In this document: piece after piece, positions 1,813 to 21,524 of the stretch
How the letters are laid out: the number at the start of each line of letters is the position of its first letter
Position numbering within the stretch: the stretch's first letter is position 1
IMG/VR virus record: IMGVR_UViG_3300032050_000037
Span: 1-64,000 of that record
Length of the DNA stretch: 64,000 nt
Direction: 5' to 3' (one strand)
Source: a virus
The notes under the pieces: generated by a model
Databases searched by the model: none
What the model saw: the letters and a program-made list of their open reading frames with translations, nothing else
Told to the model about the DNA's origin: nothing
Position numbers and translations under genes: made by a program

Positions 1813-2460
1813 TCAATCTTTATTAATTTTTTCAAAATATTTTTTTCTATATTCAGATCTCCACAAAAACATAACTAAATTTACACGCTCCCCAGATTCG
1901 ACCTTATTTACTAAATGCGGAAAATTCATATCCCCACGGAAAAAAATAAGGGTTCCAGGATTTGGTTTTATTTTTAAATTTTGTAAAGGGAATTCTATCT
2001 CTCCACCTTGATATTTATTGTTTAAATATAATATTGCTGAATAATCTGGCTCTAAACCTAATTCTTTTATTATATTTTTATCTGTTCCATATGGAAAATA
2101 AAAAGAACCATCTGGATCGTAATTGTCATAATGTTCTGTTATTTCTGACCCTGAAATCATTTTACTATAAAATATTGTTCTTGGATCAATACTAGTGTCA
2201 TATTTTTTTGATAAAAATGATTTAATAGACACAACACAATTTGTTAATAAATCTATAGATATATTTTTATTTATATTATCAGAGTATTCTTGAATTGGAT
2301 TATTGTATCCAATTTTCCAAGCAGATTCTATACCTTGACTAGGTCCTCCAAAAATTCCTTTATTTTCAGTTTCATTTAAAGAATCTTTGAATGAATCTAC
2401 TATGAAATTACAAGAATCTTCAGATAAAAAATTTTCTATAATTTCTACATTGTTTTGCAT
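1813..2460 (-). CDS. Fe(II)/2-oxoglutarate dioxygenase, P4H-like
   Basis: 215 residues with a full prolyl-4-hydroxylase-type core. The Fe(II) ligands are HYD (H110, D112) and distal H182 in FPHLV; R192 in GERVN is the expected 2-oxoglutarate carboxylate ligand. The strand LYLNNKYQGGEIEFP and the IKPNPGTLIFF segment match the other oxygenases here. It is the last gene of the minus-strand operon led by the transglycosylase, three bases after the preceding stop, and is followed by a terminator. Substrate is unknown; protein prolyl hydroxylation is the family's best-known activity but others are possible. Confidence 0.88.
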   Translation of the reverse strand: MQNNVEIIENFLSEDSCNFIVDSFKDSLNETENKGIFGGPSQGIESAWKIGYNNPIQEYSDNINKNISIDLLTNCVVSIKSFLSKKYDTSIDPRTIFYSKMISGSEITEHYDNYDPDGSFYFPYGTDKNIIKELGLEPDYSAILYLNNKYQGGEIEFPLQNLKIKPNPGTLIFFRGDMNFPHLVNKVESGERVNLVMFLWRSEYRKKYFEKINKD

Positions 2461-2463
2461 TTA

Positions 2464-2658
2464 TCAAGAAATATTTTTAAGTAAATCTTTAGATTGTAAT
2501 CCATCTAGAATATCAGAGCATACTTGTCTGTAATATGGCTGTGCGGCTAATATTTGTTTTTCTAATTCTATTAAACTAGAACCAGATTCAACAGCAACCA
2601 TTCTATTTCTTGTATTGATTTTTTCTACCATTAATTCAATTACTGCAAATTTATCCAT
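2464..2658 (-). CDS. Small hypothetical protein
   Basis: 64 residues when started at the ATG at 2658, which sits about nine bases after AAGG and overlaps the previous stop by 8 bases (ATGGATAA). An upstream in-frame ATG at 2667 would give 67. The sequence is helical and charged, without cysteines or membrane segments. No family recognised. Operon position between the transglycosylase and an oxygenase gives no firm hint of function. Confidence 0.6.
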   Translation of the reverse strand: MDKFAVIELMVEKINTRNRMVAVESGSSLIELEKQILAAQPYYRQVCSDILDGLQSKDLLKNIS

Positions 2659-2872
2659 TCGTCTCATCCTTTTCAGAAGTAAATGAAGGGACTGGACCTA
2701 ATAGATATCCTTGATCATGATATGCAATTAATTTAGATACCTCGTCGCCATCATCTTTTGATGTATTTTTGGCTATTAATGTTAATACGTCATAAATTCT
2801 ATGAAGCATAATATAGCTAACCATTGGAAGATTATCTTCCAAATTCTGTTGTTGCCTATCCTCTTCAGACAT
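2651..2872 (-). CDS. Small acidic hypothetical protein
   Basis: 73 residues starting MSEEDRQQQN. The chosen ATG (2872) follows an AAAAGG box and overlaps the previous stop by 8 bases; a TTG three codons earlier is possible. It has a short hydrophobic helical segment (MVSYIMLHRIYDVLTLIAKN) and an acidic middle part, with no catalytic motif. Function unknown. Confidence 0.6.
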   Translation of the reverse strand: MSEEDRQQQNLEDNLPMVSYIMLHRIYDVLTLIAKNTSKDDGDEVSKLIAYHDQGYLLGPVPSFTSEKDETNG

Positions 2873-3077
2873 TTTTATCAACCTTTTCTTTTATACTATT
2901 ATACAATTTTTCTCCTATAAAATTTTTATAAGAACAAGATAAACAATATAAAAATATATTATCTTCCATATCTAAATTAGATTGAAGAAGGCCTTGGTCC
3001 ATAGGACATTCTATCCTAGGTACAAGACCCTCTTCTGATAAAGCTATATATTTAGATACATATTGTATCTTTTTCAA
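2865..3077 (-). CDS. Small putative zinc-ribbon protein
   Basis: 70 residues, starting at a TTG five bases after AAGGAG. A lone Cys in ECPMD (about residue 24) and a CLSC pair (about 45-48) could form a three- or four-ligand zinc site, resembling short zinc-ribbon proteins in phages. No other domain. It lies directly after the transglycosylase gene in the same operon. Function unknown. Confidence 0.6.
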   Translation of the reverse strand: MKKIQYVSKYIALSEEGLVPRIECPMDQGLLQSNLDMEDNIFLYCLSCSYKNFIGEKLYNSIKEKVDKNV

Positions 3078-3086
3078 TATCGCTCC

Positions 3087-3638
3087 TTAAGCTGAAGGAA
3101 ACTCTGTAATAAGTTTCTTTGCTTTGACTATAGAGTTTGGCCAGGAAGACCAATCTTTACCGCCCTTAGTCATATAGTACGTTATCTCGGCATTTGTTAC
3201 TGGATCAAATAATTCCTTATTTGAAACTAATTCGAATTTTTCTAATCTTTTTACACCTAGTTGCCCAAGCATATTAATTTGAAAAATTCCGTAAGATTTA
3301 TCACCAGTTGATTTGTTGTCGTTTAAAGCCATTGGTCTCCCATTAGACTCTACCCTTGCAACAGCCCAAGCTGTTTTTAAACCAATTCCTTCAAATCCCA
3401 CAGCCCATAGTAAATCTTTTAAATCTTCAGGTGCAAGCATTTCTGAACTGGCATAAGTATCATTACTGAACTTATTTATTATTTCTCTTTTTAGTTGTTT
3501 TTCGGTTTTTTCTACCTTTGCAGGCAGTGCTTGAGTTGCTGTAGGCCCAGGCTGGACTGAAAACAAAAATAATGTTATCATTATAATTGCAGTCCAACTA
3601 TGAACTACATCGCTCAAACGTTGTTTGATTCTCTCCAT
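3087..3638 (-). CDS. Lytic transglycosylase / lysozyme-like protein with N-terminal export signal
   Basis: Peptidoglycan-degrading enzyme of the SLT (GH23-like) fold. With the ATG at 3638 it has 183 residues: a basic N-terminus and a hydrophobic segment (about 16-28, AIIMITLFLFSV) forming a signal peptide or anchor, a linker, then the SLT domain (about 65-175) with catalytic E97 in ARVESNG and the SYGIFQINM motif (115-123). This start lies eight bases after AAAGGAGG; an ATG at 3644 is too close, and the longest frame would begin at 3701 inside the promoter. It is first in a minus-strand operon. Likely role: host lysis, or wall degradation at infection if it is packaged. Confidence 0.82.
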   Translation of the reverse strand: MERIKQRLSDVVHSWTAIIMITLFLFSVQPGPTATQALPAKVEKTEKQLKREIINKFSNDTYASSEMLAPEDLKDLLWAVGFEGIGLKTAWAVARVESNGRPMALNDNKSTGDKSYGIFQINMLGQLGVKRLEKFELVSNKELFDPVTNAEITYYMTKGGKDWSSWPNSIVKAKKLITEFPSA

Positions 3639-4800: not shown

Positions 4801-6735
4801 ATGTCATACAGCATTCAGAATCCATATGAAAATTTTATTGCATTGTCAAGATATGCAAGATGGATACCAGAAGAAAATCGTCGAGAAACTTGGAGCGAAA
4901 CAGTAGATCGTTATTTTTCTTTTATGCTAGATCATTTATTTAAAGAACATTCATACGAACCTTCATCTAAACTTATAGAAGAATTAAAGCAAGCAGTTCT
5001 TGATAGAAACGTTATGCCTTCAATGAGAGCAGTAATGACTGCAGGCGCTGCTTTGGAAAGAGACCATGTTGCTGGATATAATTGTTCATTTGTGCCAGTA
5101 GACAATCCAAGATCATTTGATGAAACAATGTATATTCTTATGTGCGGAACAGGTGTTGGATTTTCTGTAGAATACAAGTATGTAAATAAACTTCCTGCAG
5201 TTCCAGAAACATTTGAAAAATCTACAACAGTTATAACAGTAGAAGATTCTAAGCAAGGTTGGGCAAAAGCATATAGAGAATTATTAGCTTTACTATGGTC
5301 AGGACAAATCCCGTCAGTAGATGTTTCAAAGCTTCGTCCAGCAGGAGCAAGACTTAAAACAATGGGAGGTCGTTCATCTGGCCCACAACCATTAATAAAT
5401 CTTTTTGATTTTACAATTGCTAAATTTAAATCAGCAGCAGGTCGTCAATTAAAGCCAATTGAGGCACATGATTTAATGTGTAAAATTGGTGAAATCGTTG
5501 TAGTTGGTGGAGTTCGTCGCTCTGCAATGATTTCTTTATCTAATATCAATGATATAGAGATGGCAGCAGCTAAATCAGGAAATTGGTGGGAGAATAATTC
5601 TCAACGTGCACTATCTAACAACTCAGTGGCTTATTCTCGTAAACCAGAAATGGAACAGTTTATTGCAGAATGGAAAAACTTATATGATTCAAAATCAGGA
5701 GAACGTGGAATCTACAATGTTGCAGCGGCACAAAAACAAGCAGCTAAATATGGAAGACGGGATCCTGAAATTCATTATGGAACCAACCCTTGTTCGGAAA
5801 TTATTCTCCGTCCTTATCAGTTTTGTAATCTTTCAGAAGTCGTATTACGTGAAAAAGATACAGTTGAAGATGTTGCAAATAAAGTCCGTCTTGCCACTAT
5901 TTTAGGAACATGGCAATCAACATTAACAGATTTTAAATATCTTCGTAAAATTTGGAAAGATAATACAGAAGAGGAGCGTCTATTGGGTGTTTCTTTAACT
6001 GGTCAATTTGGACATAAATTCTTTTCAGGAAAAGAAGATATTGATAAGTTAGAAAAAACATTAATTCAACTTCGTGAGTCTGCAAGAAAAGTAAATGCAG
6101 AAGAGGCTAAAAAAATTGGTATTCAGGAATCAGCAGCGATTACATGTGTTAAGCCTTCTGGAACAGTATCTCAACTAGTTGGAGTTTCATCTGGAATGCA
6201 TCCTTGGCATTCTCAATATTATATTCGTACAGTACGTGGAGACAAAAAGGATCCAATTTCTACATTTTTAAAAGAAGTAGGTATACCAGTAGAAGATGAT
6301 GTAATGAAACCAAATGACACATATGTATTCTCATTCCCAGTAAAAGCTCCAGAAGGCGCTATTGTTAGAAATGATCTTACTGCAATTGATCATTTAAACA
6401 CATGGTTAATTTATCAACGTGCATGGTGTGAACACAAGCCATCTATTACAGTATCTGTGAAAGAAGATGAATGGATGGAAGTTGGCGCATGGGTATACAA
6501 GCATTTTGATGAGGTATCTGGCATTTCATTTTTACCACATTCAGATCATACATACAAGCAAGCACCATATCAAGAAGTTTCTAAAGAAGAATATGTAGAT
6601 CTTTTAAGCAAGATGCCTAAAGAAATCAGATGGGCAGACCTTTCTTTCTATGAAACAGAAGATGGAACATCTGGAACACAAACACTTGCATGCACATCTG
6701 ATGGAAACTGTGAACTTGTAGATATTTCTGCATAG
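4801..6735 (+). CDS. nrdJ: Adenosylcobalamin-dependent (class II) ribonucleotide reductase
   Basis: Reduces ribonucleotides to deoxyribonucleotides using a thiyl radical generated from coenzyme B12, so it needs no small subunit or oxygen. The 644 residues show the reductase core: C95 in YNCSFVPVD and C342 in FCNLSEVV as the reducing pair, and NPCSE with N329, C331 (thiyl) and E333. The tail has two cysteines (CTSDGNC) for re-reduction by a thiol carrier. The single chain and VGGVRRSA segment fit the monomeric RTPR-like branch, though somewhat shorter than bacterial members. A purine-rich AAAGG lies 11 bases upstream. It supplies dNTPs for phage replication. Confidence 0.93.
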   Translation: MSYSIQNPYENFIALSRYARWIPEENRRETWSETVDRYFSFMLDHLFKEHSYEPSSKLIEELKQAVLDRNVMPSMRAVMTAGAALERDHVAGYNCSFVPVDNPRSFDETMYILMCGTGVGFSVEYKYVNKLPAVPETFEKSTTVITVEDSKQGWAKAYRELLALLWSGQIPSVDVSKLRPAGARLKTMGGRSSGPQPLINLFDFTIAKFKSAAGRQLKPIEAHDLMCKIGEIVVVGGVRRSAMISLSNINDIEMAAAKSGNWWENNSQRALSNNSVAYSRKPEMEQFIAEWKNLYDSKSGERGIYNVAAAQKQAAKYGRRDPEIHYGTNPCSEIILRPYQFCNLSEVVLREKDTVEDVANKVRLATILGTWQSTLTDFKYLRKIWKDNTEEERLLGVSLTGQFGHKFFSGKEDIDKLEKTLIQLRESARKVNAEEAKKIGIQESAAITCVKPSGTVSQLVGVSSGMHPWHSQYYIRTVRGDKKDPISTFLKEVGIPVEDDVMKPNDTYVFSFPVKAPEGAIVRNDLTAIDHLNTWLIYQRAWCEHKPSITVSVKEDEWMEVGAWVYKHFDEVSGISFLPHSDHTYKQAPYQEVSKEEYVDLLSKMPKEIRWADLSFYETEDGTSGTQTLACTSDGNCELVDISA

Positions 6736-6744
6736 TGGTATTAT
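6716..6744 (+). promoter_or_regulatory. Promoter for the holin gene
   Basis: TTGTAG (6716-6721), 17-bp spacer, TATTAT (6739-6744) with TG extension (TGGTATTAT). It overlaps the end of the reductase gene. The leader contains a small hairpin (CTGAGC-ACACG-GCTCAG) and an AGGAGG ribosome site. Confidence 0.55.
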
Positions 6745-6802
6745 TATAGTATTGGGTAACACCAAAATTGCTGAGCACACGGCTCAGAAATAGGAGGATC
6801 TA

Positions 6803-7030
6803 ATGAAAAAAGATCTAAATAATGATGGAGTAATATCAATGACAGAACAAATCCTAGCAGCTCTTGGAACATATGCTCGTGCATTCCTTTCAGCAGCAAT
6901 TGCTTTGTATATGACTGGAAATACAAATCCAAAGGATCTACTTATGGGCGGAGTAGCAGCAGTAGCCCCAGTGATTTTGAAAGCTCTTTCTCCAAGCAAT
7001 CAAGAATTTGGTTTTAAATCAGCCAAGTAA
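6803..7030 (+). CDS. Putative holin
   Basis: 75 residues. A short charged N-terminus is followed by two hydrophobic segments: about 17-38 (ILAALGTYARAFLSAAIALYM) and about 47-62 (LLMGGVAAVAPVILKAL). The C-terminus is polar. Size and topology match small two-helix holins that make the inner-membrane hole releasing the endolysin or triggering lysis. The ATG follows AGGAGG with good spacing; a promoter lies upstream and a strong terminator just downstream, so it forms its own transcription unit. The transglycosylase is 3 kb away on the other strand. Assigned by topology; a tail-linked membrane protein is less likely. Confidence 0.65.
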   Translation: MKKDLNNDGVISMTEQILAALGTYARAFLSAAIALYMTGNTNPKDLLMGGVAAVAPVILKALSPSNQEFGFKSAK

Positions 7031-7052
7031 TTCAGTAGACTGTATTAAGAAA

Positions 7053-7086
7053 GCTCCTATGCTAAAATGAGCATAGGAGTTTTCCT
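7053..7086 (+). terminator. Rho-independent terminator after the holin
   Basis: CTCCTATGCT (7054-7063) pairs perfectly with AGCATAGGAG (7070-7079) around loop AAAATG, followed by TTTTCCT. Confidence 0.85.
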
Positions 7087-7105
7087 ATTTTAGGAGATTT
7101 TGCAA

Positions 7106-7456
7106 ATGGCAGTACAAAAAAATTTTGAAGTAGATCAAAATGCTACTTTCACCTTTGAAGTTCAATATACTGAAGAGGATGAAGTCACACCTATAAGTTT
7201 AGTAAATGCAACTGCAAAAATGCAAGTACGTGATACTAAAGGTGGATCTAAATTAGCATTTACTTTAACATCACCAACTGGTGGTATAACAATTAATGGA
7301 GCAACTGGAACATTAACTGTTAAAATGACACCTACTCAAACTAATAAATTGTTTTATCCAAAATCTTCTTATGACATTATGGTCGTCGATTCTAATGGGA
7401 ATAAAATAAAACTCCTAGAGGGGTTTTTAACACTCAGTAGATCGGTGACTATATGA
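7106..7456 (+). CDS. Baseplate/fibre-associated structural protein
   Basis: 116 residues from the ATG at 7106 (nine bases after TAGGAG; a TTG at 7100 is too close). It is beta-rich, with the pattern of a small Ig-like domain: DQNATFTFEVQY, ATAKMQVRD, LTVKMTPTQT, YDIMVVDSNGN, LLEGFLTL. Similar small domains are common at the head of phage fibre operons, where they link a fibre to the tail tip. It overlaps the next gene by 4 bases. No catalytic motif. Role inferred from position and fold style. Confidence 0.6.
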   Translation: MAVQKNFEVDQNATFTFEVQYTEEDEVTPISLVNATAKMQVRDTKGGSKLAFTLTSPTGGITINGATGTLTVKMTPTQTNKLFYPKSSYDIMVVDSNGNKIKLLEGFLTLSRSVTI

Positions 7457-7905
7457 CAGAAAAAGTAATAGTAAAAGAAGAAAAAAGAAAAGTTATTGTT
7501 ACGTCTCCTGGACCTCAAGGTCCAGCAGGAAGAACAATATTAAATGGAACTGGTGCTCCTTCTGGAAATTTAGGAGTAACTGGAGATTTTTATTACAATA
7601 CATCTACAACAGACTTTTATGGACCAAAACTTACAGACTTAAGTTGGTCTGGCGCAACAGTAATTAAATTTATTCAAGAAGGTGCAGATTATGCATATTC
7701 AACTTCTTGGGAAATAGCTCAACTTTCAGGGCCATTAAATGGCGTATATTCTTTAGAAATTATGCACAACTTAGGATTTTATCCAAATCTAACAGTAAGA
7801 ACAAGTTCTGGAGATATTTTAGAAACTGGAATAGATTACAATAATATAAACAAAATAACACTGACTATGGCTCAACCATTTTCAGGGACAGCATACCTGT
7901 CATAA
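7453..7905 (+). CDS. Fibre protein with short collagen-like segment
   Basis: 150 residues. Near residues 19-27 a GPQGPAG collagen-like stretch precedes the common fibre module GDFYYNTSTTDFYGPK. The C-terminal 55 residues (HNLGFYPNLTVRT to FSGTAYLS) form a beta-rich end domain that resembles the end of the 542-aa fibre next door. It overlaps the preceding gene by 4 bases. Probably a trimeric fibre or fibre adaptor. The Gly-Pro repeats could be targets of the phage's prolyl-hydroxylase-like enzymes, which is speculation. Confidence 0.7.
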   Translation: MTEKVIVKEEKRKVIVTSPGPQGPAGRTILNGTGAPSGNLGVTGDFYYNTSTTDFYGPKLTDLSWSGATVIKFIQEGADYAYSTSWEIAQLSGPLNGVYSLEIMHNLGFYPNLTVRTSSGDILETGIDYNNINKITLTMAQPFSGTAYLS

Positions 7906-14573: not shown

Positions 14574-15890
14574 ATGAGTAAAAGAGCTGGAAGAAAATCT
14601 CAACAGTCTAATGACTTTTTAGAGCCATATAAACCAATAATTACATCAGTTACAGATGTAGGTACAAATAGACCATTTAATGATGGGTCTGCAAGCATAG
14701 CATTTGAATTGCCAGCAGGATCTCCAGATGCGACATCTTTCACAGCAACATCTAGTCCTACTGGATTAACAATAACTGGATCTTCATCTCCATTGGTTAT
14801 GACTGGATTAGCATCAAATACTAATTATACATTTACAGTATATGCAACAAATTCTTATGGAAATTCACAAACATCAGATGCATCCTCATCTACATTAATT
14901 ACAACAGTACCATCAGCACCAGTATCTCCTTCCGTTTCTTCAACAGTTGCCGACAGGGACGATGTTTCTTGGTCAGAACCATCTAGTGGTGGTAAATCTA
15001 TTACATCATATACAGTAGTGTCTTCAGATGGACCATCTTATCAAAATATAGCAGCAACGTCATATCAAGTTTCAGAATCTGGTGGAACTACACAAAGTTA
15101 TACAATTTATGCAGTTAATGCTAATGGAACATCAGCAGGAGCATCTACAAATTCAGTAACTACATTCTTTTCTCCACCATCATTCTTTGCACCTCCAGGG
15201 TTCTTTAGCCCTCCAGGATTCTTCAGTCCTCCAGGATTCTTCAGTCCTCCAGGATTCTTCAGTCCTCCAGGATTCTTCAGTCCTCCAGGATTCTTTAGTC
15301 CTCCAGGGTTCTTTGCACCACCAAGATTTTTTGCACCTCCAGGGTTCTTTGCACCACCAAGATTTTTTGGACCTCCGTATTTTGGAGGAGGAGCCACCTG
15401 CTTACACGAAGATACACCAGTAACAGTTGTTGGTGAAAATGACTCAATTGAATATAAACCTGCAAAAGATGTTCAAGAAGGAGATTGGATATGGGCAGTG
15501 GATATAGAAGAACTAGATCCAAATGAACCAGCATATTCATCATTATTCTGGATAAGCCCTACAGCAACCTTTAATGGTTTAGTTAAAACAGAGGTTATTA
15601 ATAAATATACTTCTTTAGCTGAAGAAACAATAACCATTAATAATGATCCAAGTTCTAGATTTACAAAAGAACATCCAATGTTTATAACAAGAAATGGAGA
15701 AAATACATTCGTTTTAGCAAATAATTTGCAAATCGGTGATATTTTATCTAAGCATGATAATCAAGGCAACATATACTCAGAAACAATAAATTCTATAGAA
15801 ACTATTGTAGAAGAGTGTGCAGTGCTTACATTTAATGCTGAGCCATATGATTTAATTTATGCAAATGGCATATTAACTCATAATAAATAA
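14574..15890 (+). CDS. Fn3-repeat virion protein with (FFxPPG) repeats and C-terminal Hint domain
   Basis: 438 residues. About 20-105 and 110-195 are two fibronectin type III-like domains (SNTNYTFTVYATNSYGN and TTQSYTIYAVNANG). Residues 198-269 are twelve hexapeptides FFxPP(G/R/S/Y), eight of them ending PPG. A GGGAT hinge leads to a Hint (hedgehog/intein) domain: C276 in CLHEDTPV (block A nucleophile), EHPMF (block B His) and the terminal motif ANGILTHNK with H436 and N437. Only Lys follows the Asn, and no endonuclease domain is present. So it should self-cleave or form a thioester rather than splice two exteins. It lies at the end of the fibre run, just before the oxygenase operon. Confidence 0.82.
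   Translation: MSKRAGRKSQQSNDFLEPYKPIITSVTDVGTNRPFNDGSASIAFELPAGSPDATSFTATSSPTGLTITGSSSPLVMTGLASNTNYTFTVYATNSYGNSQTSDASSSTLITTVPSAPVSPSVSSTVADRDDVSWSEPSSGGKSITSYTVVSSDGPSYQNIAATSYQVSESGGTTQSYTIYAVNANGTSAGASTNSVTTFFSPPSFFAPPGFFSPPGFFSPPGFFSPPGFFSPPGFFSPPGFFSPPGFFAPPRFFAPPGFFAPPRFFGPPYFGGGATCLHEDTPVTVVGENDSIEYKPAKDVQEGDWIWAVDIEELDPNEPAYSSLFWISPTATFNGLVKTEVINKYTSLAEETITINNDPSSRFTKEHPMFITRNGENTFVLANNLQIGDILSKHDNQGNIYSETINSIETIVEECAVLTFNAEPYDLIYANGILTHNK
15165..15380 (+). repeat. Twelve tandem 18-bp repeats encoding FFxPP(G/R)
   Basis: Twelve 18-base units; the core unit TTCTTCAGTCCTCCAGGA is repeated almost without change (FFSPPG), and the outer units vary to FFAPPG, FFAPPR and FFGPPY. DNA-level identity in the core suggests recent expansion. 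It separates the Fn3 region from the Hint domain. Confidence 0.9.
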
Positions 15891-15892
15891 TA

Positions 15893-15921
15893 TAGACATA
15901 TAAATAAAGTTTTGCTATAAT
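15893..15921 (+). promoter_or_regulatory. Promoter of the oxygenase operon
   Basis: TAGACA (15893-15898), 17-bp spacer, TATAAT (15916-15921) with TG extension (TTGCTATAAT). It begins within five bases of the Hint gene stop. Confidence 0.7.
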
Positions 15922-15954
15922 TATTTTTTAAATACTAGCAGAAAGATATTTATT

Positions 15955-16572
15955 TTGGAAAAATTAGAAGTAGGATATGGCATATGGCTATACCGCAACG
16001 TATTTCCAGACAATCTTAATTTAATTACAAGAATAGAAAATGCTATTGATAATAGTAATGGAATTTATTCTTGGAAAGAAGCAATGGTTGGATGGAAACA
16101 AAAAATTCCAGAGTATAGAAATTGTTTAGATTTTAAAGTTTCTAAACCAAATAGTACATCAATAACTAAGAATAAAAGTTCAGTAGAAGTACAATCAATT
16201 TGGCAAGACTCCTACAATGCACAAAAAGAATGTCTAGATGATTATTGTAAAATGTATAGAATAAAATTAGATTATTGGGAATCTTTTAACTTTGTTAAGT
16301 ATGAAGAGGGCCATCATTTTGAGGAGCACTCAGATCATGGAGATGCCTATGTTTGTACTGTATCTGGAGTAGGATATCTAAATGATGATTATGAAGGTGG
16401 AGAATTATTTTTTCCAAAAATTAATATATTTATTAAACCACAAAAGGGAGATCTATACTTATTTCCATCTTCATTTATTTATTCTCATAAATCAATGCCA
16501 ATAAAGTCAGGAACTAAATACTCAATAGTTACAATGTTTGATTATAACGATAAGCACCATAAAGGACAATAA
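15955..16572 (+). CDS. Fe(II)/2-oxoglutarate dioxygenase, P4H-like
   Basis: 205 residues from a TTG start. The metal ligands are H125 and D127 (EHSDHGD) and H178 (YSHKS). K188 in SGTKYS takes the place of the 2-oxoglutarate-binding basic residue; Lys at this site is characteristic of prolyl-4-hydroxylases. YLNDDYEGGELFFP and IKPQKGDLYLFPS complete the fold. It is the first gene after the promoter and ends in a one-base TAATG overlap with the next gene, a close paralog sharing WQDSYxAQ and YWESFNFVKY. The Hint protein with Pro-Pro-Gly repeats directly upstream is a possible substrate. Confidence 0.9.
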   Translation: MEKLEVGYGIWLYRNVFPDNLNLITRIENAIDNSNGIYSWKEAMVGWKQKIPEYRNCLDFKVSKPNSTSITKNKSSVEVQSIWQDSYNAQKECLDDYCKMYRIKLDYWESFNFVKYEEGHHFEEHSDHGDAYVCTVSGVGYLNDDYEGGELFFPKINIFIKPQKGDLYLFPSSFIYSHKSMPIKSGTKYSIVTMFDYNDKHHKGQ

Positions 16573-17267
16573 TGTTAAATAATGCTGAATACCTAGCCCC
16601 AGGAATTATAGTTTATAGAAATGTATTCCCAGAATCAATGAATTTAATTCAAAGATTAGAATCAGAACTTTCAAAAGAAAATAATCCTTATAAATGGAAA
16701 ACTGCAAAAACTGGGTATAATTTAGAAGATAAAAGATATAGAGATTGTGCTGATTTTAAAATTAAAAGTAACCCACAAGGTTATTTAATGTTAGGCGGAG
16801 AAAGCGTTACGCCAGAAAATAAAAAAGAAACAGAAATAGCTTTAGAAAAAGTTTGGCAAGACTCTTATAGCGCACAAATAGAACCAGTAGAAGATTATAG
16901 AAAAATATTTGGACTTGCACCATTAAATTATTGGGAATCTTTTAATTTTGTTAAGTATGGAGAGGACCAGCATTTTCAAGTACATTCAGATCACGGATAT
17001 TCTTATATTTGTGTTTTATCTTCTGTTGGATATATTAATGACGATTACGAGGGTGGAGAATTATTTTTTGATAAGTTAAATTTAAAAATTAAACCAAAAG
17101 CTGGGGATCTTTACTTATTTCCTTCATCTTATATTTACTCACACGCAGCTATGCCAGTTACAAAAGGGGTTAAATACTCTATAGTTACAATGCTAGATTA
17201 TTTAGAGGCACCACACACCCCAGAGTACAGAGAAATAGAAAAAAGATATACAGAAAATTATTTATAA
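16572..17267 (+). CDS. Fe(II)/2-oxoglutarate dioxygenase, P4H-like (paralog of preceding gene)
   Basis: 231 residues, clearly a tandem duplicate of the preceding gene: both share YRNVFP, WQDSYSAQ, NYWESFNFVKYGE and YxNDDYEGGELFF. The ligands are H138, D140 (VHSDHGY), H191 (YSHAA) and K201. It has an insertion of about 15 residues before the core compared with its twin. One-base TAATG overlaps join it to both neighbours. Retention of all ligands in both copies suggests they hydroxylate different targets. Confidence 0.9.
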   Translation: MLNNAEYLAPGIIVYRNVFPESMNLIQRLESELSKENNPYKWKTAKTGYNLEDKRYRDCADFKIKSNPQGYLMLGGESVTPENKKETEIALEKVWQDSYSAQIEPVEDYRKIFGLAPLNYWESFNFVKYGEDQHFQVHSDHGYSYICVLSSVGYINDDYEGGELFFDKLNLKIKPKAGDLYLFPSSYIYSHAAMPVTKGVKYSIVTMLDYLEAPHTPEYREIEKRYTENYL

Positions 17268-17968
17268 TGTATAAGATTAAGGCTTATAAAAATATTAATT
17301 CTGCAGATATAAAACAAATTAATATTAAAAGAGACTGGATGGACAATACTGTAGATGGACACGCATACAGATGTTTTCCAGTAACATTAGCAAATGGATT
17401 AGGATGGGGTTTATCTTTTCCTAAAGATATATCTTTTATTTGGGACGGAATTTCAGACACCTCTGGAAATCATGTAAAAATATTAGAAGGAGAAGAGTAT
17501 TGTTATACAGAAAGAGCAAATGCTACAATTAGTTTCAAAACAGGTATAATATTTGAAACAGATAAAGACGTAAGCTTACTACAAATGCCTGTCCCAAATA
17601 TGTTTATAGATGGAGCACAAGCATTTACAACAATAATGAGTACATCTTTTTTTAAAGGAGAATTTCCCTGTGCTCTAAGAATAACTAAACCGTTTACAAA
17701 AATTACAATTAAAGCTAATCAGCCGTTTATATCAATAGTACCAATATCTTTAACTAATTTACAAAATTCAATAATAGAAATTGATGATCCTAAGAATATG
17801 AAAAATAACATATCTTTAGATGAAAAAGAACACTTAGATGTTGTTAAAGAAAAAACAAAAAATGGAATATGGACCAATTTCTATAGAGATGCTGTTAATT
17901 ATAAAGGACAAAAAATAGGAGAGCATGAAGTTAAAGCAATTAGACTTTATGTTAACAATAATGAATAA
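17267..17968 (+). CDS. Conserved protein of unknown function (DUF6065-like), first of a pair
   Basis: 233 residues, no HxD motif, so not an oxygenase of this type. The pattern YRCFPVTLANGLGWGLSFP, SFIWDG, FTTIMSTSFFKGEFPCALRITKP and ANQPFISIVPIS suggests a beta-sandwich protein of the DUF6065 kind; that family name is from memory and unverified. The next gene has the same layout (a Cys-Pro element, a hydrophobic GY/GW strand, a TxxGxxD element, then a KGxP-IxxxP strand), so the pair appear to be distant paralogs. Its position inside the oxygenase operon suggests it supplies a substrate or partner function. Confidence 0.6.
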   Translation: MYKIKAYKNINSADIKQINIKRDWMDNTVDGHAYRCFPVTLANGLGWGLSFPKDISFIWDGISDTSGNHVKILEGEEYCYTERANATISFKTGIIFETDKDVSLLQMPVPNMFIDGAQAFTTIMSTSFFKGEFPCALRITKPFTKITIKANQPFISIVPISLTNLQNSIIEIDDPKNMKNNISLDEKEHLDVVKEKTKNGIWTNFYRDAVNYKGQKIGEHEVKAIRLYVNNNE

Positions 17969-18680
17969 AATAATATTTCATTCATCTAGACCTTATAATA
18001 AAAATACTGAAGAATATTTACCCGTGCCTTCAAAAACAGAAATTCCAAACTGGTTTTCTAAAGCTAGTAAATATTGGAAAAACATGGATGGTTCATATAT
18101 TGTAGATCATCTTGGTGAAAGAGGACTCGGTTTTAAATCATGCCCAGCACTTTTAGATTCATTTTCTATTGGTTATCTTTTAAAAACTCCATGTGATTTA
18201 GCATTTTATGAAAAAGATGGAGATATACATGTAGAAACCCCCAAAGGATTTGAAGAGTTTTGTGCAAGAAGAGAAGAGATGCCAGAGTTTGTAGTTCCAC
18301 ATGGATATAGAAAAACACATTTTCATTGGTGGCCAAATTGGTCAATGGAGACCCCAGAAGGATATAGCTTATTAGTTATAAATCCATTAAATAGATTTGA
18401 TTTACCATTTTTAACAACTAATGGTATTATAGATAGTGATATGTACACAATTTCAGGACTTATTCCATTTTTCTTAAAAGATAATTTTGTAGGATTAATT
18501 CCTAAAGGAACTCCATATGCACAAGTAATTCCTTTTAAAAGAGAAGACTGGAAAATGGAACCTATTTTTCATGAAAAAAGAACTATGATAAAAAAACATG
18601 TTTTTACTGCAAGAAAATTTAGAGTAAAAGGCGGAGGAATATACAAAAAAGATATTTGGAAACCAAAGAAATATGAATAA
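17961..18680 (+). CDS. Conserved protein of unknown function, second of a pair
   Basis: 239 residues from the ATG at 17961, which overlaps the previous stop by 8 bases (ATGAATAA); longer in-frame starts exist at 17925 and 17949. Features: FKSCPALLDSFSIGYLLKTP, a His/Trp-rich segment (HFHWWPNW), INPLNRFDLPFLTTNGIID and FVGLIPKGTPYAQVIPF. It resembles hypothetical proteins of T4-like cyanophages encoded near oxygenases. HFHWW and the central acidic residues could bind a ligand, but no catalytic motif is certain. Confidence 0.65.
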   Translation: MNKIIFHSSRPYNKNTEEYLPVPSKTEIPNWFSKASKYWKNMDGSYIVDHLGERGLGFKSCPALLDSFSIGYLLKTPCDLAFYEKDGDIHVETPKGFEEFCARREEMPEFVVPHGYRKTHFHWWPNWSMETPEGYSLLVINPLNRFDLPFLTTNGIIDSDMYTISGLIPFFLKDNFVGLIPKGTPYAQVIPFKREDWKMEPIFHEKRTMIKKHVFTARKFRVKGGGIYKKDIWKPKKYE

Positions 18681-18691
18681 AGGAGACTGTT

Positions 18692-19408
18692 ATGTTTGAA
18701 AATGCAAACGAAAAAGATATTATACAAAATTTTGATGCCGTAAATGAAAACAAAGATATTAGAACTGCTAGAAAATCAATAACCCCTTCTGGATACTTTG
18801 GTTCTTCTTCTAATATGATTCAAGAAATAGAAAATTTTTTAACTGAGGAAGAACAAGAATTTTTATTAAATTTTGCAAAAAATAATAAAATATGGGACGT
18901 AACAGAATCACATTATAATGAAAATGGAACTATTATATATGACCATAGGCCTTGGGAAAATAGAGTCGCAACTCTTAATACATTAACAAAAGCAAACCCA
19001 GAAGTAGTTTTAATGTTAAGAGAAATTATAGAAAGATTGAAACCAGTAATTGAATCTTTTTATAATGTAGAAGCTACACCTACACACCCAGCAATTGTTA
19101 GATGGCCTAAAGGTACATATCAATTCCCACATGCAGATAAAGAGTTACACGAGGGCCCAGACGCTGGAAAAGAAAATGATTTTCCATGGTATGATCTAGG
19201 AACTATTTTTTATTTAAATGATGACTACGAAGGCGGAGAACTTCATTTCCCTAAACAAAATATATCTTTTAAACCAAAAGCAAGAGCAGCATATTTTTTC
19301 CCTGGAGATTTAAATTATATACATGGAGTTAATGTAGTAAAGGAAGGATGTAGATATACATCGCCCTGGTTTTGGACTATTACAAAATTAAAGGATAAAA
19401 ATGTATAA
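18692..19408 (+). CDS. Fe(II)/2-oxoglutarate dioxygenase, P4H-like
   Basis: 238 residues, preceded by AAAGGAG. After an N-terminal extension of about 40 residues the core has H147 and D149 (PHADKEL), the strand FYLNDDYEGGELHFP, H211 (YIHGV) and R221. It uses Arg rather than Lys as the presumed 2-oxoglutarate ligand, so it belongs to a different subgroup from the first two enzymes of the operon. It overlaps the next gene by 8 bases. Substrate unknown. Confidence 0.9.
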   Translation: MFENANEKDIIQNFDAVNENKDIRTARKSITPSGYFGSSSNMIQEIENFLTEEEQEFLLNFAKNNKIWDVTESHYNENGTIIYDHRPWENRVATLNTLTKANPEVVLMLREIIERLKPVIESFYNVEATPTHPAIVRWPKGTYQFPHADKELHEGPDAGKENDFPWYDLGTIFYLNDDYEGGELHFPKQNISFKPKARAAYFFPGDLNYIHGVNVVKEGCRYTSPWFWTITKLKDKNV

Positions 19409-20114
19409 TATAACAAAATATAAAGATGATGTATTTACAATAGATGATTTTTTAACTGAAGATGAGTGTAAAAGAATCATAGATTATTTGGAAATGTCAG
19501 TACAAAATAATTATATTAAATGGAACCAGATCTCATTTTATGAATCTTATGCTATGGGATTTTGGGAATATGATAATAATTTAATTCCTTTTGGATTTAA
19601 TCCAAAATATTTTCATGAGCTTAAAGAAAAAATAAAAAATGCTGGTGAAATCTGCTTTAATAATAAATTAAGCGAAATTAGTTATCATGCACAAAAATGG
19701 ACAGAGGGCGCATTTGCAGGATTCCATTCAGACAATTCAGATGAACATGGAAACCCAACGGCTTTTCAAAGAAGTAAATATGCAATTTTTTTATATCTTA
19801 ATGATAATTTTGATGGTGGTAATTTAAACTTTGAACACTATCCAATTAACATAAAACCAAAAGTAGGAATGTTAGCGGTTTTTAAAGGCGGATATAAAAA
19901 TGAACATGAAGTAACAACAGTTAAAAATGGTGAAAGGTATACTATTGGATCATTTTGGGATGACGCAGACGCAGTCTACACAGATGAAGAAAAAGCTAAA
20001 TGGGAAGTTGAATTAAAAGAAACAAGAGCTGGTCAAGAAGTTATGTATAAAAAATGGAAATCTGATAAAGAAAATGGAATAGTTCCAACTTATAAAAGTA
20101 AGTATGAAAACTAA
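19401..20114 (+). CDS. Fe(II)/2-oxoglutarate dioxygenase, P4H-like
   Basis: 237 residues. Ligands: H109, D111 (FHSDNSD), H169 (NEHEV), R179 (GERYT). The core strand is LYLNDNFDGGNLNF, the most divergent version in the operon. A 40-residue charged C-terminal tail (TDEEKAKWEVELKET onward) follows the beta-helix and may be a helical docking or dimerisation element. Eight-base overlap with the previous gene (ATGTATAA). Confidence 0.88.
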   Translation: MYNITKYKDDVFTIDDFLTEDECKRIIDYLEMSVQNNYIKWNQISFYESYAMGFWEYDNNLIPFGFNPKYFHELKEKIKNAGEICFNNKLSEISYHAQKWTEGAFAGFHSDNSDEHGNPTAFQRSKYAIFLYLNDNFDGGNLNFEHYPINIKPKVGMLAVFKGGYKNEHEVTTVKNGERYTIGSFWDDADAVYTDEEKAKWEVELKETRAGQEVMYKKWKSDKENGIVPTYKSKYEN

Positions 20115-20125
20115 CAGGAGAAAAC

Positions 20126-20944
20126 ATGAGCAATAATATGGAAAGAATAGTATTATATCCAAAGGTAGAGGTATATAGAAATTTATTAAATAACGTAAAT
20201 GATTTATATGAAACTATGAAGGAATCAGAAAAAACATCAGACGGAAAATATTATTTAAGAAAATGGGATAAATGGTCGGTTTTTGGAACTTATACTCAAC
20301 AAAAACACGAGGAGTCAGAGCCAAGAGAATACGGTCAAATGTACGATAGAGAAAAACTATTATCTGATGAAGTTTATAAAGCGTATAACATTGCAATAGA
20401 TGCATATATAAAAAATAATAATGTTGTCATGCCAGAAGGAGCTCAATTAATGTCTTCTTCATTCTCTAAATATAAAAAAGACTTAGATGTTTTAGAAAAT
20501 AATTTAGCCATGCAGTACCATACAGATTTTAAAATTTTTGAATCAGAGTGGCCAGGGTCAAAATTTTTTCTAACATGTACAACTTACATTAATGATGATT
20601 ATGAGGGTGGAGATATTGAATTTTTTATAAATGGAGAATTTGTTTCTCACAAACCAAAAGCAGGAGACATTTTAGTTTTTCCTTCTATCCCTCCATATTT
20701 TCATGGAGTTAAAACAATTAAAAGAGGAGAAAAGTTTTTTGTAAGAAATTTTATCACATATCTTTCTGAGGGTTCTAGATCTTGGTTAGAGAATCAAAAA
20801 ATATACGGACCAAGAGAATGGCTTCAGATGGAAGAAGATAGAATTAAAAGAGAGATGCCAGAAGCAATGCTTTATTTTGAAAATGGAAAACAGATACAAT
20901 ATTCAGAGAAAATAAAAAATAATGAAAATAACAACATTAAATGA
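20126..20944 (+). CDS. Fe(II)/2-oxoglutarate dioxygenase, P4H-like
   Basis: 272 residues, preceded by AGGAG. The core begins late: H132 and D134 (YHTDFKI), TYINDDYEGGDIEF, H193 (YFHGV) and K203 (GEKFF). The N-terminal 110 residues are helical and charged. A 50-residue tail after the core resembles the tail of the 318-aa enzyme at 62 kb (both have WLEN/WIEM-type segments after RNF/RSF), so those two form a subgroup. It overlaps the following gene by 23 bases. Confidence 0.88.
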   Translation: MSNNMERIVLYPKVEVYRNLLNNVNDLYETMKESEKTSDGKYYLRKWDKWSVFGTYTQQKHEESEPREYGQMYDREKLLSDEVYKAYNIAIDAYIKNNNVVMPEGAQLMSSSFSKYKKDLDVLENNLAMQYHTDFKIFESEWPGSKFFLTCTTYINDDYEGGDIEFFINGEFVSHKPKAGDILVFPSIPPYFHGVKTIKRGEKFFVRNFITYLSEGSRSWLENQKIYGPREWLQMEEDRIKREMPEAMLYFENGKQIQYSEKIKNNENNNIK

Positions 20945-21524
20945 TAATATTATTTACTATCAGAGTTTAATAAATGATATAGATAATTTTATTAATTTAA
21001 TAAATAATATAGAAGAAGAATATGTTTATCTTTTTTCTAAATGGGAAAAATGGTATGCCAGCAATGCAGATGTTTTATATGGAGAATCTAGAGAATCTTC
21101 TTTTAGTAGTATATTAAATAATTGTAAAAAGGAATCAGATTCTTTTTTTATTGCAAAAACTATCAAAGAATTAGTAGATTTTTGCATTAAAGATTATTGT
21201 GAAAAAACAAAACAGGTCCCAGGATATTTGCCAGATCATTTTACAATTAAAAAATATAATACCGATGCATATATGGGTCCACATGTAGATACCGAAGATT
21301 TATTTGATAAAAAACAACCATCTATATCTATGGTTTTTTATTTAAATGATGATTACGAGGGGGGAGAAATAGAGTTCCCTAATCAGCAAATCAAAATAAA
21401 GCCAGAAGCTGGAAGTTTAATTATATTCCCGTCCTATCAACCATATATACATGACCCAAAACCAGTTTTATCTGGAACCAAATACATGATACCTCTTTTT
21501 TGGTTTAAAGAAAAGTTTTGGTAG
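20922..21524 (+). CDS. Fe(II)/2-oxoglutarate dioxygenase, P4H-like
   Basis: 200 residues; last of the six oxygenases in this operon. Ligands H121 and D123 (PHVDTED), H177 (YIHDP) and K187 (SGTKYM); strand FYLNDDYEGGEIEFP and IKPEAGSLIIFPS. The N-terminal 100 residues are low in complexity and Asn/Ile-rich. Its start lies 23 bases inside the preceding gene. The next gene has its own leaderless promoter. Confidence 0.88.
   Translation: MKITTLNDNIIYYQSLINDIDNFINLINNIEEEYVYLFSKWEKWYASNADVLYGESRESSFSSILNNCKKESDSFFIAKTIKELVDFCIKDYCEKTKQVPGYLPDHFTIKKYNTDAYMGPHVDTEDLFDKKQPSISMVFYLNDDYEGGEIEFPNQQIKIKPEAGSLIIFPSYQPYIHDPKPVLSGTKYMIPLFWFKEKFW

Follow-up and report, generated by a model that had tools for sequence, protein, structure and literature searches.

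Some tailspikes and fibres have at their C-terminus a chaperone that cleaves itself off, such as the endosialidase IMC or peptidase S74 domain. Among proteins of the Hint fold, class 1 inteins have as their only omnipresent residues a Cys or Ser at position 1 and a C-terminal Asn, Gln or Asp, and loss of the block B His can be compensated (PMC7664689). Type A bacterial intein-like (BIL) domains, which have no nucleophile at +1, mostly cleave (PMC4031507). The locus described here lies in a window of 64,000 nucleotides (positions 1 to 64,000 of the 113-kb virus record IMGVR_UViG_3300032050_000037) and would put an established Hint chemistry at a novel site, the end of a phage fibre of the tail type, with a C-flank of one residue. 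We predict, with moderate confidence, that it encodes a self-processing fibre tip of the type A BIL kind, most likely autocleaving.

The fibre ORF has the limits and length given in the preliminary description (Table 1), and the gene is the sole copy in the virus record. It lies in a fibre module, with a gene for an Mtd_N protein on its upstream side and one for a LamG protein on its downstream side, ahead of the portal, prohead protease and capsid genes. The two Fn3-like domains and twelve FFxPP(G/R/S/Y) hexapeptides read earlier from the translation were both recovered, the former by Pfam PF00041 (E=1e-7, two stretches) and by phmmer matches to the Fn3 domains of titin, the latter at residues 198-269, where the shaft DNA consists of 18-bp units in a tandem array at 15182-15376. 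The stretch that separates the fibre stop codon from the oxygenase genes (15893-15978) contains a 29-bp tandem repeat and a promoter-like site, which is a putative, unproven promoter. Searches of 50,697 phage records with the whole fibre protein (tblastn) and with the Fn3 part of one relative gave no match.

Table 1 Coordinates of the fibre gene, its parts and its neighbourhood in the window
Feature	Position	Strand	Evidence or remark
Whole fibre gene, 438 aa	14574..15890	+	ORF translation
Basic N-terminal segment MSKRAGRKSQQSNDFLEP	14574..14627	+	Alignments: conserved whatever the tip type
Two Fn3 domains, residues about 20-197	14631..15164	+	Pfam fn3, phmmer
Shaft: 12 hexapeptides FF[SAG]PP[SGRY], residues 198-269	15165..15380	+	
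Linker FGGGAT preceding Cys276	15381..15398	+	Not conserved among relatives
Hint domain, residues 276-437, type-A-BIL-like	15399..15884	+	Profile, fold, dN/dS
Cys276, Hint position 1 (N-S acyl shift nucleophile)	15399..15401	+	
His367, block B TxxH (TKEH367)	15672..15674	+	
Block G His436-Asn437 and single C-flank residue Lys438	15879..15887	+	
Promoter-like site, 11/12, extended -10	15893..15921	+	Number of sites not above that in shuffles
Cluster of six 2OG-Fe(II) oxygenases (PF13640), one DUF6065 and one phrog_7084 protein	15955..21524	+	Directly downstream

The C-terminal domain comprises 162 residues and is followed by one Lys. A match to Hint or BIL profiles, set beforehand as a check of the preliminary description, was obtained: the domain alone matched PF14890 (Intein_splicing) with E=5.6e-6 and 26.7 bits, below the Pfam gathering score of 35.8, and a profile of 33 family members retrieved from the PDB the BIL domain 2lwy (E=1.7e-9), then gp41-1, CDC21 and RadA/archaeal inteins. 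When the AlphaFold2 model of the domain (pLDDT 90, pTM 0.85) was compared with the PDB by Foldseek, BILs, inteins and Hedgehog-C were found at E 1e-7 to 1e-5, the best match being BIL2 of the Tetrahymena BUBL1 locus and the other fold neighbours C. thermocellum BIL 2lwy, the RadA intein, DnaB inteins and Hedgehog-C. In the family alignment, residues C276, T364/H367, H436, N437 and K438 occupied the catalytic columns, which bears out the earlier reading of the block A Cys, of EHPMF and of the terminal His-Asn with one Lys.

Type A BILs autocleave and occasionally splice. The domain combines sequence and fold features of this group, namely the Hint fold, a Cys at block A, a C-terminal His-Asn and a non-nucleophilic +1 residue. 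Exteins on both sides and a Cys, Ser or Thr at +1, as in class 1 inteins, were not found (the C-flank is one residue and +1 is Lys), nor was a Hog sterol-recognition region after the Hint domain, as the protein stops one residue past block G. There was no full-length match to phrog_38766; the protein matched only phrog_6977, in its Fn3 part. Since +1 is Lys, the domain is by definition BIL-like (type A) rather than an intein with a +1 nucleophile (PMC4031507), and by profile and predicted fold it is nearest to BIL domains. Profile, fold and family-wide conservation together support its identity, its place at the C-terminus of the fibre and the missing +1 nucleophile. Class 3 intein chemistry was considered and rejected: many relatives have a block F Cys (SCEPYD), read as lying off the class 3 position, and the window protein has Ala there (FNAEPYD). 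A role in toxicity or defence was dismissed (no PADLOC match), and a pretoxin release module was ruled out by the end of the ORF one residue after the Hint domain.

Relatives were collected by scans with the Fn3 part, which matched hundreds of proteins; the best 80 per scan of more than 500 IMG/VR relatives were used, and the family sample consists of 130 distinct proteins with a complete C-terminus from viral metagenomes. Two of these (L034 and L037) fall outside the fibre family proper and were excluded from the oxygenase count and from the tree. Database entries for such proteins have titles of the kind 'contains intein domain' or 'Fibronectin type III'. Close relatives on other viral contigs are 79-99% identical over the Hint region and keep its C...HNK. 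A Hint-like tip is present in 59 of the 130, and the other 71, without a Hint match, have a Cys-rich knob or end right after the shaft. The knob is of the GCSGCxRSYCWQACPxCCGxCGC type (L084, L091, L093, L118, L136 and others). Relatives lacking the Hint domain appear mostly genuine, and their origin by frameshift was rejected, as only L220 has an intact Hint domain downstream in another frame. In that locus (2305-3637) the frame is broken within the shaft repeats; the break could reflect a sequencing error, decay or switching by means of the repeats.

The shafts are equally varied, with repeats of the FFxPPG, FFPPFFPFF, FGAF, FGFSPF, FSFVP and NFYNYS types, and repeat number differs among relatives. 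One locus (L110) has a tandem pair of family fibres (6001-6804 and 6843-7685), both with NFYNYS shafts and no Hint domain, and in L266 (3971-5731) Cys-rich modules are inserted into the shaft ahead of a Hint tip of the Ser1/Asp type. The tip type changed at least 29 times, with the N-terminus retained, on an Fn3 tree in which many branches are weak; as judged from these comparisons, the fibre tip is exchangeable. The conservation of the N-terminal segment whatever the tip indicates that this segment is probably the attachment or virion end and the Hint domain the distal one. The Gly hinge (FGGGAT-C) noticed earlier is present in the window phage and is peculiar to it: relatives have FSK-C, AGG-C, TR-C, PA-C or even GPP-C at this place.

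Position 1 of the Hint domain was Cys or Ser in all 59 tips (by eye in L216 and L231, whose rows were misaligned), the terminal residue was Asn or Asp in 52, and the block B His was kept in 31. Cys1 was combined with terminal Asn in 39 tips, 18 with and 21 without the block B His, and the +1 residue was Lys in 30 of these 39. Ser1 was accompanied by terminal Asp in 13/13 cases, each with the block B His, and seven further tips had Cys1 with neither that His nor a terminal Asn/Asp. The Cys1/Asn and Ser1/Asp pairings were never mixed; the tree shows one Cys/Ser switch and at least three changes of the His state. The Ser1/Asp clade (L033, L096, L186, L206, L222, L252, L261, L266, L269) always keeps the block B His, and its structure is still predicted as a Hint fold. 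In a representative set of 25 Hint tips less than 70% identical to each other (median 27%), position 1 was Cys in 20 and Ser in five. The Cys column of the 20 Cys-type members is invariant by construction of the group; Asn437, kept in 17 of them, is among the best-kept columns of the domain, and His436 is kept in 16.

The dN/dS of the Hint domain was 0.08-0.28 across five close relatives; for the window's Hint domain it was 0.10-0.28 against four relatives and about 0.1 against the nearest, and three relatives compared in both parts gave 0.105-0.112 for Hint and 0.165-0.246 for Fn3; the codons for Cys1 and both His showed silent changes among close relatives. The Hint domain of the window is under purifying selection. 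Taken with these ratios, the retention of Cys or Ser at position 1 and of the terminal Asn/Asp argues well, though indirectly, for selection on processing chemistry in the fibre Hint tips. The earlier view that catalysis matters was thereby supported indirectly, with residue 1 and the terminal Asn/Asp conserved at a median identity of about 27%.

In the proposed mechanism Cys276, aided by Thr364/His367, would attack the carbonyl of Thr275 in an N-S acyl shift, and the thioester would then be resolved by water or another small nucleophile. The Hint cap would be shed, leaving a mature fibre that ends at the shaft, and cyclisation of Asn437, a step of type A BIL chemistry, may cut off the lone Lys or transfer it. 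The domain would thus serve as a removable assembly or protective cap; its cleavage, timing and role are all inferred. Autocleavage is favoured over the alternatives because self-removal would leave a shaft-ended fibre of the kind that many relatives encode directly. In addition to the Hint/BIL match by profile and fold, self-processing is supported by the co-variation of both ends of the domain (Cys1/Asn versus Ser1/Asp), by the frequent swapping of tips on a constant N-terminus and by the recurrence of a kindred Hint tip on unrelated, collagen-like fibres of jumbo phages. Against it stand the loss of the block B His in 28 and of the terminal Asn/Asp in seven of the 59 tips, and one lineage with Pro at -1 of the Hint domain. 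A Pro at this position should hinder the acyl shift. Moreover, the 71 relatives without a Hint match imply that cleavage is not needed for fibre function.

The main rival reading, which we consider possible but rather doubtful, is that the Hint fold forms a stable non-catalytic tip, a receptor-binding or a folding/trimerisation knob, whose conserved residues are structural or inherited. It would account for the domain being kept in some tips without the block B His, the Asn or both, for the Hint fold still predicted in the Ser1/Asp variant, and for a position shared with Cys-rich knobs and often swapped, as expected of receptor-binding ends; yet Cys or Ser at position 1 of every tip and Asn or Asp at the end of nearly all, at a median identity of about 27%, would be unexpected if the domain were purely structural. 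The view of the domain as an intein-like passenger, neutral or in decay and harmless at the C-terminus, fits its sporadic presence (59/130) and several eroded copies, and is very improbable in view of the dN/dS of about 0.1 among the nearest relatives, a constraint at least equal to that on the Fn3 part, and of residue 1 being kept everywhere.

In another outcome, which we regard as unlikely, an amine or some other nucleophile would take over the thioester formed at the end of the shaft, and the fibre would become covalently joined to a second virion protein, Lys438 or a molecule on the host surface. Type A BILs can ligate by aminolysis (PMC4031507), the +1 residue here is not Cys, Ser or Thr and is Lys in most Asn-type tips, and the best fold match is BIL2 of the BUBL1 locus; a conserved acceptor was nevertheless not found, neither the linker nor the -1 residue is conserved, and the BILs studied give mainly cleavage products (PMC4031507). 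The preliminary description had proposed such a joining to a virion or host component. This part of it found no direct support; simple self-cleavage explains the same data, more than half of the sampled relatives have no Hint match, and catalytic residues are lost in some Hint tips. The special case in which the distal end of a fibre containing hydroxyproline forms a thioester and couples covalently to an amine of the host surface or of a partner virion protein is more unlikely still.

Hydroxyproline enters the argument through the neighbouring genes. The nearest solved relatives of the oxygenase encoded at 16572-17267 are the prolyl 4-hydroxylases 3itq and 5hv0 (E=7e-8), and the HxD...H motif of this enzyme class is supported by the PF13640 matches and by HSDH...H...K read in the translations. 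Among relatives whose sequence extends 2.5 kb or more downstream, oxygenase genes were found within 4 kb of all 79 PP-rich shafts, usually two to four of them, and of nine of the 37 other shafts, never more than one. The whole contigs checked carry 3 to 13 copies of PF13640 in phages with PP-type shafts versus 0 to 5 (mostly 0 or 1) in the others, and these far lower numbers led us to reject PF13640 as an unspecific phage gene. Wherever the four shaft changes on the tree, too few for significance, could be paired, the enzymes changed in the same direction or did not differ, never the opposite. DUF6065 tracks the PP-shaft pattern and phrog_7084 does not. The constant presence of prolyl-4-hydroxylase-like genes beside PP shafts suggests that the neighbouring 2OG oxygenases hydroxylate the shaft prolines.

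A C-terminal Hint domain with a short C-flank was also found on tail or fibre proteins of Erwinia, Dickeya and Yersinia jumbo phages, of Salmonella phage Sen-NF, Alcaligenes phage Afa-NA1 and phage NCTB; those inspected (phrog_38766) have collagen-like repeats. One paper reports inteins of the same jumbo group only in terminases (PMC7412058). A search for virion proteomics of these jumbo-phage analogues found none. An uncultured 484-kb phage encodes another protein ending in HNKH. Directly after the Hint-tipped fibre gene of phage NCTB lies a free-standing Hint-like ORF of 153 amino acids (BN7874_135; L019, 6480-6938) that ends in VHNKVD, a candidate trans-acting domain or split remnant. The presence of Hint tips on unrelated fibres implies that different fibre scaffolds either evolved the tip or acquired it.

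In the open-access literature searched, no paper was found on fibre-tip Hint domains as a group or on the link between fibre shafts and hydroxylases. Exchangeable BIL tips of the Cys1/Asn, Ser1/Asp and eroded kinds, together with relatives lacking the domain, make the natural job of a BIL domain directly testable. Should the tips cut, phages would have a new route to a mature fibre end; should they ligate, intein chemistry would provide covalent attachment or assembly. The hydroxylase link, if true, would explain the many 2OG oxygenases of such phages, often filed as auxiliary metabolic genes.

The type A BILs 2lwy and BUBL1 BIL2 (6y75/6tmm) share with the window's domain Cys1, the block B TxxH, the terminal His-Asn and the lack of a +1 nucleophile; what sets the window's domain apart is its C-flank of a single residue (Lys) and its place at the very end of a phage fibre. 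Class 1 inteins and mini-inteins have the Hint fold and blocks A, B, F and G in common with it, whereas the window protein has no Cys, Ser or Thr at +1, no homing endonuclease and almost no C-extein, and its gene also occurs without the Hint domain, with other tips in the same place. The Hedgehog Hog domain (1at0, TM 0.65) likewise has the Hint fold and is a C-terminal domain that releases its N-terminal partner, but it uses cholesterol and has no terminal Asn chemistry; the window keeps His-Asn, and in fibre tips of the Ser1/Asp type the Asn has been lost. With the IMC and S74 domains the logic would be alike, a C-terminal fibre domain removing itself, but fold and chemistry differ and the likeness is an analogy only. 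Bacterial prolyl 4-hydroxylases are relatives of the neighbouring oxygenase, the shaft repeat here being FFxPPG and not collagen GXY. The phrog_38766 fibres too have a C-terminal Hint domain, annotated 'contains intein domain' in the Y3_110 and NCTB records and matched by the Hint parts of family loci L044 and L096; they differ in their collagen-like GXY shaft, their N-terminus and a C-flank ranging from several residues to about a dozen, and their Hint domain is only 27% identical to that of the window.
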